Source of the DNA: Roseobacter insulae
Lineage (GTDB): Bacteria; Pseudomonadota; Alphaproteobacteria; Rhodobacterales; Rhodobacteraceae
Length of the DNA stretch: 64,000 bases
Direction of reading: 5' to 3'
Assembly (NCBI RefSeq): GCF_019375555.1
Contig: NZ_JAHXDN010000005.1
Location: 310,001-374,000 of the forward strand
The position numbers and the translations under genes are program-made. The notes beneath the pieces were generated by a model. It did not search any database and was not told the DNA's origin. It was given only the letters and a program-made list of their open reading frames with translations. Shown piece after piece: positions 25,071 to 27,065 of this stretch. How positions within the stretch are numbered: the stretch's first letter is position 1; each line of letters begins with the position of its first letter.

Positions 25071-27065
25071 TTACATCATGCCACCCATTCCGCCCATGTC
25101 GGGCATGGCGCCGCTAGGTCCGCCAGCGCCTTCCCTGGCAGGCTTGTCGGCAACCATTGCTTCTGTGGTGATCAAGAGACCCGCGATGGAGGCTGCATCT
25201 TCCAGAGCTGTACGAACAACCTTGGCAGGGTCGATGACACCGTAAGCGAACATGTCACCATACTCCTCGGTCTGTGCGTTGAAGCCAAAGGATGCATCGT
25301 CGCTCTCGCGGACTTTGCCCGCCACAACGGACCCGTCGACACCGGCATTCTCAGCGATCTGACGCAGAGGCGCCTCCAGCGCTTTGCGGACGATTGCGAT
25401 ACCGTTGTTCTGGTCGCTGTTGGCACCTTTCAACCCGTCGAGGGTTTTGGCCGCCTGAACCAACGCAACACCACCGCCCACAACTATGCCTTCCTGAACG
25501 GCGGCGCGCGTCGCGTTCAGCGCGTCATCAACGCGGTCCTTACGCTCTTTCACTTCCGCTTCTGTCATGCCACCGACGCGGATCACGGCAACACCGCCGG
25601 CCAGCTTGGCAACACGTTCTTGCAGCTTTTCGCGGTCGTAGTCAGATTTTGTACCCCCAACGTACTGTTCCGTTTTACGGGTGATAGTCCGCTTCTCGGC
25701 TTCCTTTTCTAAGTAATCGATTTGCTGCAGGCGAAAGCCAGAAAGGAAATTCTGTATTTCAATCAATTCATCTCGCTCAAATCCGTAAGTCTTTCCTTTG
25801 ACAAAGAAACCACTAGGAATTATTTGCACCCTTGAATGATTTACAAAATTAAGAAGTTGCAAAAAGTATTCGTATCTTTCCTTGGTATCCAGTCCAAATC
25901 GTTTTTGGAACTCTTCAGTTACTACCAGTTTTGACTGGTCTAGTATCTCAACCATCACTTCCTCTGTAGGTGGAATAGAAGAAGTTCTAGTAACCTTTTC
26001 GCCTTTGATCTGACGACGCAGCTGAGAAACACGCTCCGTAATCGCGATTCTGTCGCCCATTCCATCGATTATCGTCGTGTCATCCTTTGTAATATGAACG
26101 CGCTTGGCTTCACCGAGCATTTCCTTCGTTACTCTCTCAAGCTTCATGCCCAGCTCTTCGGAGATCACCTGACCACCTGTCAGGATCGCGATGTCCTGCA
26201 GCATGGCCTTACGACGGTCACCGAAGCCCGGTGCCTTGACCGCTGCGATCTTCAGGCCGCCTCGTAACTTGTTAACAACCAGAGTGGCCAGTGCTTCTCC
26301 GTCAATGTCTTCGGCGATAACTAAAAGTGGCTTCTGACTTTGTATCACCGATTCAAGGAGCGGAACCATTGGCTGCAGCGAGGAAAGCTTCTTCTCGTGC
26401 AGCAGGACCATGCAGTCTTCGAGCTCTGTCGTCATCTTGTCCGGGTTCGTCACGAAATAAGGGCTGAGGTAACCGCGGTCGAACTGCATGCCTTCAACAA
26501 CGTCCGTCTCGGTCTCTAGGCCCTTGTTCTCTTCCACGGTGATCACGCCGTCATTGCCAACCTTCTGCATCGCGTCTGCGATTTGCTGGCCGATTTCGGC
26601 TTCGCCGTTGGCGGATATGGTGCCAACTTGGGATACCTCATCGGAATCCTTCACCTCGCGGGAGGCCGCTTTGATGGCTTCCACCACGGCGGTCGTCGCC
26701 ATGTCGATGCCGCGCTTGAGGTCCATGGGGTTCATGCCCGCAGCAACCGACTTCATGCCTTCCTTGACGATGGCCTGGGCCAGAACCGTCGCGGTCGTCG
26801 TGCCGTCGCCGGCTTCATCATTGGTGCGAGAAGCGACTTCCTTCACCATCTGCGCACCCATGTTCTCGAACTTGTCTTCCAGTTCGATTTCCTTGGCAAC
26901 GGAAACACCATCCTTGGTGATGCGCGGTGCGCCGAAGCTCTTGTCCAGCACGACGTTGCGGCCTTTTGGGCCTAGCGTGACCTTCACAGCGTTAGCCAGG
27001 ATGTTGACACCCTTGAGCAACTTGTCACGGGCGGTCGTGTCAAACTTTACGTCCTTTGCGCTCAT
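25071..27065 (-). CDS. GroEL-like chaperonin with an inserted domain
   Basis: 664 residues against the usual ~545. The backbone is a Rhodobacter-type Gro[19 protein letters not shown], the ATPase loop [11 protein letters not shown] with its aspartate, the apical YLSPYF and [19 protein letters not shown], the catalytic aspartate in [20 protein letters not shown], and the C-terminal GGM tail. Residues about 354-472 are an insertion absent from GroEL. It splits the helices RVSQLRRQI and [12 protein letters not shown], a loop of the apical domain on the outer face. The ATG overlaps the preceding stop (ATGA). No groES is present nearby. ATPase and substrate-binding residues look intact, so it is probably a functional paralogue recruited for a special role rather than the housekeeping chaperonin. 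Confidence 0.9.
25650..26006 (-). other. Inserted ~118-residue domain within the GroEL-like protein
   Basis: The segment from [10 protein letters not shown] to TEQYVGGTK replaces the 2-3 residue loop of ordinary GroEL. It is mostly helical by eye, with a helix [10 protein letters not shown], then [28 protein letters not shown], a strand-like [12 protein letters not shown], and two more helices. The first half could be a winged-helix-like fold, but that is a guess. Its DNA is visibly more A+T-rich than the flanking groEL sequence, which points to a separate origin. Confidence 0.75.

Follow-up and report, generated by a model that had tools for sequence, protein, structure and literature searches.

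The analysed stretch of 64,000 nucleotides from Roseobacter insulae (hereafter the window) harbors three genes on its minus strand, which follow each other in the order membrane protein, 172-aa protein and GroEL and overlap at their ends. The genes and the parts of the domain inserted into the GroEL are listed below, where G306 denotes a second genome of the genus Roseobacter; the genome of the window itself is G000.

27573..28280, minus strand: gene 1, membrane protein of 235 aa (ORF call, hydropathy; relative in G306)
27062..27580, minus strand: gene 2, middle protein of 172 aa (ORF call; its stop overlaps the GroEL start; positional counterpart in G306)
25071..27065, minus strand: gene 3, GroEL paralogue of 664 aa that carries the inserted domain (ORF call, alignment, profile match)
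25653..26006, minus strand: inserted segment, residues 354-471 (to about 473), in place of EETT (alignment with the genome's own GroEL)
25974..25997, minus strand: first strand of a predicted beta-ribbon stalk, residues 357-364 (AlphaFold2)
25689..25964, minus strand: predicted four-helix domain, residues 368-459 (AlphaFold2)
25662..25685, minus strand: second strand of the predicted stalk, residues 461-468 (AlphaFold2)

The third gene had originally been predicted to encode a GroEL paralogue, and this was confirmed: the frame at 25071-27065 on the minus strand has exactly the predicted ends and encodes an intact protein of 664 aa with no internal stop. The GroEL family profiles concerned are TIGR02348 and PF00118 (group I chaperonin). 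TIGR02348 matched the window protein with 827 bits, in two stretches split by the insert, and the corresponding protein of G306 with 813 bits, the cut-off being 582. The genome's own ordinary GroEL, a protein of 547 aa encoded with groES ahead of it on a separate contig (C17), served as reference for the comparisons. The body of the window protein is identical to it at 486 of 544 positions (89%). At the ATP-site and the substrate/GroES-binding positions, 13 of 13 and 8 of 8 residues, respectively, are as in the own GroEL, so the predicted retention of these residues holds for the positions checked; the values for G306 are 12 of 13 (T91S) and 8 of 8. Six of seven further contact positions are unchanged in both copies, while position 126 differs. 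Between the window body and the own groEL dN is 0.08 and dS 1.30, which indicates that the divergence is old and that purifying selection has been acting. A fresh duplication of the own groEL or a gene conversion from it was ruled out by the dS of 1.3 and by other GroELs of the family, which are equally close or closer. The tree of the GroEL bodies is weakly resolved, with the G306 sequence on a long branch.

The likeness to group I chaperonins thus comprises the whole body, the profile score and the checked ATP and substrate/GroES positions; the window copy differs in about 120 extra apical residues, in having neither groES nor a CIRCE element and in being the last gene of an operon that also encodes a membrane protein and a small protein. 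As had been expected, a tblastn search with the own groES detected no groES in the window, nor was one present in the 45-kb stretch of G306; a groES partner in the operon is not known to be obligatory for every GroEL paralogue. The CIRCE heat-shock element was found neither in the window nor beside the G306 copy, unlike in the own groESL stretch, which contains one with one mismatch. At the window operon three promoter-like sites were found, against 3.0 expected by chance.

The insert was originally described as an apical domain of about 118 residues. According to the alignment, two apical helices are joined in the ordinary GroEL by an EETT linker (...QIEETTSDYD), which is swapped here for about 120 residues starting at residue 354; the net gain is 117 and agrees with the description. 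The insert DNA is also A+T-richer than its surroundings, as predicted, with a GC content of 39.5% compared to 56.3% and 59.9% in the flanking GroEL parts. An AlphaFold2 model of the whole chain, based on a 48-sequence alignment, reached a mean pLDDT of 83.8 and a pTM of 0.66; in the insert, for which the alignment consists of two rows only, the pLDDT ranged from 72 to 88 by 10-residue block, with one block at 63. When the insert was folded alone, four helices were again predicted (mean pLDDT 70) and the stalk was absent. The insert may therefore be a beta-ribbon stalk carrying four helices, the pairing of the two strands into a stalk being read from the whole-chain model, and in a ring the domain would probably be directed outwards. 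The prediction covered a single chain, and Foldseek identified this model as GroEL, closer to the GroES-bound state (TM by target 0.93 with 5opx) than to the apo state (0.64 with 1oel).

No relatives of the insert alone were found in Pfam, in PHROGs (best E 0.13), among PDB sequences (best E 0.9 and 0.23), in plasmids (one row at E 7) or in phages (best E 0.09, 33% across half of the insert). Pattern scans of GTDB r220 contigs and IMG/VR, which reach close relatives only, returned none either, and PADLOC gave no match to the insert as part of the whole GroEL protein. Foldseek searches of PDB and BFVD revealed no significant fold match (best E 0.43 and 0.16). One BFVD row, a minor capsid protein from phage NP3, was matched with a TM (of the query) of 0.61 and an rmsd of 3.3 but with an E of 3.0; it is a weak lead only, since helical bundles can reach such values by chance.

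A single relative was identified, in G306, whose contig matches NZ_CANLNE010000001.1 ('Uncultured Roseobacter sp. isolate 741-3Z'). There the operon encodes a membrane protein, a 176-aa protein and a GroEL of 664 aa; the genes follow one another and overlap as they do in the window, and the insertion site is identical. Whereas the GroEL bodies of the two loci share 79% identity (431/545), the inserts share 18% (22/119); their kinship is nevertheless well supported by a local Z of 13, a global Z of 9.8 and 0 of 3000 shuffles, and the pattern DTxER...PxG...G...GF...EL...QxF is common to both. By these comparisons the insert is a true homologous domain present in two loci. An assembly chimera, which had been named as a possible objection to the original prediction, is excluded, because G306 agrees with the window in the order of the genes, in the length of the GroEL and in the place of the insert.

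The claim that the two upstream genes are conserved neighbours stood with a reservation on the middle gene. The membrane proteins of the window and G306 are related, with 31% identity over 188 aa (E 2e-28), and only their C-terminal parts show no recognisable kinship (local Z 0.5, global Z 1.9). The middle gene has retained its position and its length, whereas the two middle proteins show no recognisable sequence kinship (BLASTP E 0.28 and local Z 1.0; the global Z is 3.2, with 7 of 3000 shuffles). Taken together, the alignments portray a conserved GroEL body with an insert and partners that appear to be diverging fast (18-31% or beyond recognition), which may reflect co-variation among these parts or between them and a ligand.

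Hydropathy predicts four transmembrane segments in the window membrane protein, followed by about 100 residues, and the protein may resemble Kiwa KwaA. The genes of the membrane protein and the middle protein both have a GC content of 47%. Comparison of the two proteins with Pfam, PHROGs, NCBIfam and PADLOC gave no convincing family and no recognised toxin or antitoxin, and PADLOC-DB 2.0.0 yielded 0 families for each of the three window operon proteins at E up to 1. For the window middle protein there were no relatives in IMG/VR, plasmids or PDB, and a search of 198 family genomes gave six rows at E up to 0.1, of which only its own was convincing (the others E 0.007-0.073). The window membrane protein had no relatives in plasmids (one row at E 9), that of G306 none in plasmids and phages. 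With a profile of both membrane proteins G306 was the sole relative found in GTDB contigs, IMG/VR yielded none and the best E in PDB was 0.029; this match, an ion channel, was taken as chance.

GroEL is encoded in all 19 Roseobacter genomes searched, but the insert-bearing copy in only two of them (G000 and G306), so the insert is not a general feature of the housekeeping GroELs of the clade. A profile of both inserts gave two real matches in 339 genomes, again G000 and G306. Up to an E of 1 there were 24 rows, and the 22 not counted as real had E values of 0.013 or worse; eight loci from these 22 genomes, when opened, contained GroEL in no case. In 378 genomes the same profile found one real match (G000), the five other rows (E 0.006-0.04) lying in frames of 19-446 aa. 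A search with the single insert in 295 genomes resulted in one match; one more row (E 0.047, genome G144), which lies within a LysR-like frame (by eye), was taken as chance. The profile of the whole protein matched in 384 of 394 family genomes, a set to which G306 does not belong, and among the matches listed only the window's own spanned all 664 positions and no other frame exceeded 600 aa. The membrane-protein profile had two real matches in 291 genomes, next to six others at E 0.010-0.039. The genome sets of these searches overlap, and a third member equally diverged could escape detection. In IMG/VR no relative of the insert or of the membrane protein was present, and a script found no frame of more than 590 aa bearing both GroEL motifs in the best 80 of 400 GroEL-encoding stretches.

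Second GroEL copies as such occur elsewhere in the genus. The paralogues at loci L031 to L036 are 79-86% identical over the first 354 residues and differ from the window copy in being free of the insert. Four genus regions with other GroEL paralogues contained neither an insert nor a relative of either partner gene; a groES-like ORF lies beside groEL in three of them (by eye), and none was called in L153. The insert-free paralogues L031 (genome G311) and L032 (G296) have altered C-terminal tails and Hsp90-like or protease-like ORFs nearby (by eye), with a groES-like ORF adjoining the G296 copy, and are likely stress copies.

The surroundings of the two operons differ. In G306 a 46-base tRNA-Phe core is repeated exactly at 1018569-1018614 and 1033927-1033972 and bounds an element of 15.4 kb. 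The operon lies directly inside the first att copy and is followed by a tyrosine integrase, a Prim-Pol/AAA protein (Pfam) and a STAND-like protein of 1742 aa (L040:16627 to L158:4855), the end of which falls directly inside the second att copy. Two parts of the latter matched PDC-M54A (E 1e-10) and Avs4 (E 6e-13); the likeness is weak, and the protein is possibly a diverged Avs type. Genome G301 has the tRNA-Phe with a single core copy, but it represents an imperfect empty site, as there is no colinearity with G306 on the other flank. Genome G304 carries another element at the same tRNA-Phe gene (L194:1993-16838), in which PD-T7-3 (E 1e-44) and a GajB-like helicase are flanked on one side by the far att copy and on the other by an integrase-like gene (named by eye). 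The operon of G306 thus occupies a place where the other element keeps defence genes. At the opposite end of the G304 element are genes for proteins of 891 aa and 239 aa with weak PADLOC matches only.

This defence-element setting is present for the G306 copy, whereas the window copy lacks both an att core and an integrase next to it and lies 20 kb from Avs3. Since none of 17 further genomes of the genus fully matched the LysR flank of the window operon, the DNA of the operon is regarded as accessory; colinearity with genome G308 (96%) stops at 28611. Several other features were observed in the window. An Avs3 defence pair is located at 48255-55173 (PADLOC: Avs3a 2223 bits, Avs3b E 3e-62), and an integrase at 59683-61044 adjoins a tRNA-Arg at 61196-61272; together these genes are 20-33 kb from the operon and look like a separate tRNA-Arg island. 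A 230-base direct repeat (20479-20708 and 24494-24723, 99% identical, 21-base inverted ends) has two copies only in the genome. A motif of 12 bases from its end is present again at 56861-56872, close to a frame that resembles a transposase (by eye), and the repeat is therefore possibly an IS-derived miniature element. Finally, three near-identical genes for tyrosine recombinase-like proteins of 210 aa (by eye) are found at 742-1374, 35799-36431 and 43560-44192.

Several known systems can be compared with this operon. The capsid proteins of phages lambda and T4 depend on GroEL, and bNACHT25 detects phage through DnaJ (PMC12169576). CmdTAC frees its toxin when the SecB-like chaperone is captured by newly synthesised capsid protein (PMC11618068); the antitoxin varies widely among CmdTAC homologues (PMC9519451), and the antitoxin of TAC systems depends on its chaperone via a short tail (PMC5105189). 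The window operon shares with TAC systems three adjacent, co-directed genes with the chaperone in last position and, as in CmdTAC, a fast-varying middle gene; like TAC systems, its G306 counterpart lies in a defence context. It differs in that a membrane protein is encoded first instead of a recognised toxin, that neither an antitoxin family nor a chaperone-addiction tail was recognised and that the chaperone is GroEL and not SecB-like, for which reason we liken the operon to TAC systems in its working and do not class it as a member. Phage sensing via a host folding chaperone would be common to the operon and bNACHT25; there, an NLR-like sensor watches the cell's own DnaJ, whereas in the operon this part would fall to a dedicated copy of the chaperonin. 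With respect to the insert, a review describes the apical domain of GroEL as tolerant of large insertions (PMC5904260), random insertion mutants are reported to be mostly non-functional (PMC9138447) and GroEL bearing EGFP or luciferase can enter 14-mers in E. coli (PMC9965216). These engineered fusions (PMC9138447, PMC9965216) likewise carry a foreign polypeptide within GroEL, but they are man-made, while here a natural domain occupies one site in two diverged genes. In line with the original prediction, no described protein of this design was found in those parts of the open-licence literature that were available.

We propose, with a probability of roughly 0.4, that the three genes form an immunity module which would work like the toxin-antitoxin-chaperone systems of phage defence, with the modified GroEL as chaperone. 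The GroEL with the insert would build rings, alone or mixed with the host GroEL, which would retain normal binding of clients and GroES, and its stalked four-helix domain would dock one of the two partners, either the membrane protein or the rapidly diverging middle protein. This docking would hold the membrane protein silent. Upon infection, phage structural proteins that require GroEL would take up the chaperonin, the middle protein would be lost or released from the occupied chaperonin, and the freed membrane protein would act as effector, halting growth or killing the cell before phage are produced. By analogy with the known systems we infer the effector role of the membrane protein, a ligand for the insert, the mixed rings and the trigger. 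A more far-reaching version, in which the modified GroEL itself is the phage sensor and the stalked insert couples the client/GroES cycle to a membrane effector, so that a phage folding its capsid on the cell's chaperonins would set off an alarm, would be a new class of immunity; we regard it as rather doubtful.

The immunity reading is favored by three genes that are arranged and overlap identically in both of the diverged loci, by the kinship of the membrane proteins (E 2e-28) and of the inserts (local Z 13) and by a body that is under purifying selection while insert and partners diverge. It is further favored by the tRNA-Phe element in which the G306 operon lies with an Avs-like STAND protein, by PD-T7-3 in the corresponding slot of G304 and by the precedents CmdTAC and bNACHT25. 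Against it stand the count of two members, of which a single one lies within a defence element, the lack of a PADLOC model for the three window proteins and of a toxin or antitoxin family, the middle proteins and membrane C-terminal parts without recognisable homology and a promoter signal not above chance. A role of the operon in phage defence is hence suggested by association at one locus (G306), and any cargo of a mobile element can show an association with defence genes.

Alternatively, the protein may be a chaperonin dedicated to certain clients and without an immune function, whose insert tethers the ring to the membrane protein in order to fold or insert a specific protein or to serve membrane stress. 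The intact ATP and client positions, the operon shared with a membrane protein and the resemblance of other GroEL paralogues of the genus to stress copies are consistent with this. We nonetheless consider it unlikely, because CIRCE is missing at both loci, unlike at the own groESL, groES is not nearby, the gene is rare and situated in accessory or mobile DNA, and insert and partners diverge rapidly. It is less likely still that the GroEL acts as a poison subunit, entering the host rings and spoiling phage capsid folding or blocking the cycling of GroES under regulation by the other genes. Mixed rings are plausible given the 89% identity of the body to the own GroEL, and in E. coli GroEL that carries EGFP or luciferase can become part of 14-mers (PMC9965216). 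However, the identity of the G306 body to the own GroEL of that genome is only 81%, and its C-terminal part shares 67% with the GroEL of the window genome; such a subunit would be a burden on the host and would leave the conserved membrane protein unexplained. Comparably improbable is a module that serves its mobile element instead of the cell, stabilising or regulating it by addiction or via the capsid pathway of a helper phage: the element in which the G306 copy resides does encode an integrase and a Prim-Pol, with the integrase gene immediately downstream of the operon, but no such element surrounds the window copy, and the sister element of G304 has different genes in the slot. An assembly chimera or an inert passenger with a random insertion, as the AT-rich insert and the few relatives might suggest, deserves hardly any credence, since the chimera is refuted by the independent relative in G306, whose insert is related and identically placed, the frame is open and the body is under purifying selection.

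If the immunity reading is true, the operon would directly exploit the dependence of phages such as lambda and T4 on GroEL. In the accessible portion of the open-licence literature we found no immune system built on GroEL itself; chaperone-based immunity, known with SecB-like chaperones in TAC systems and with DnaJ in bNACHT25, would be extended to the chaperonin. As the predicted structure suggests, evolution may be able to set a whole folded domain into the apical domain of GroEL and leave the checked active positions unchanged.
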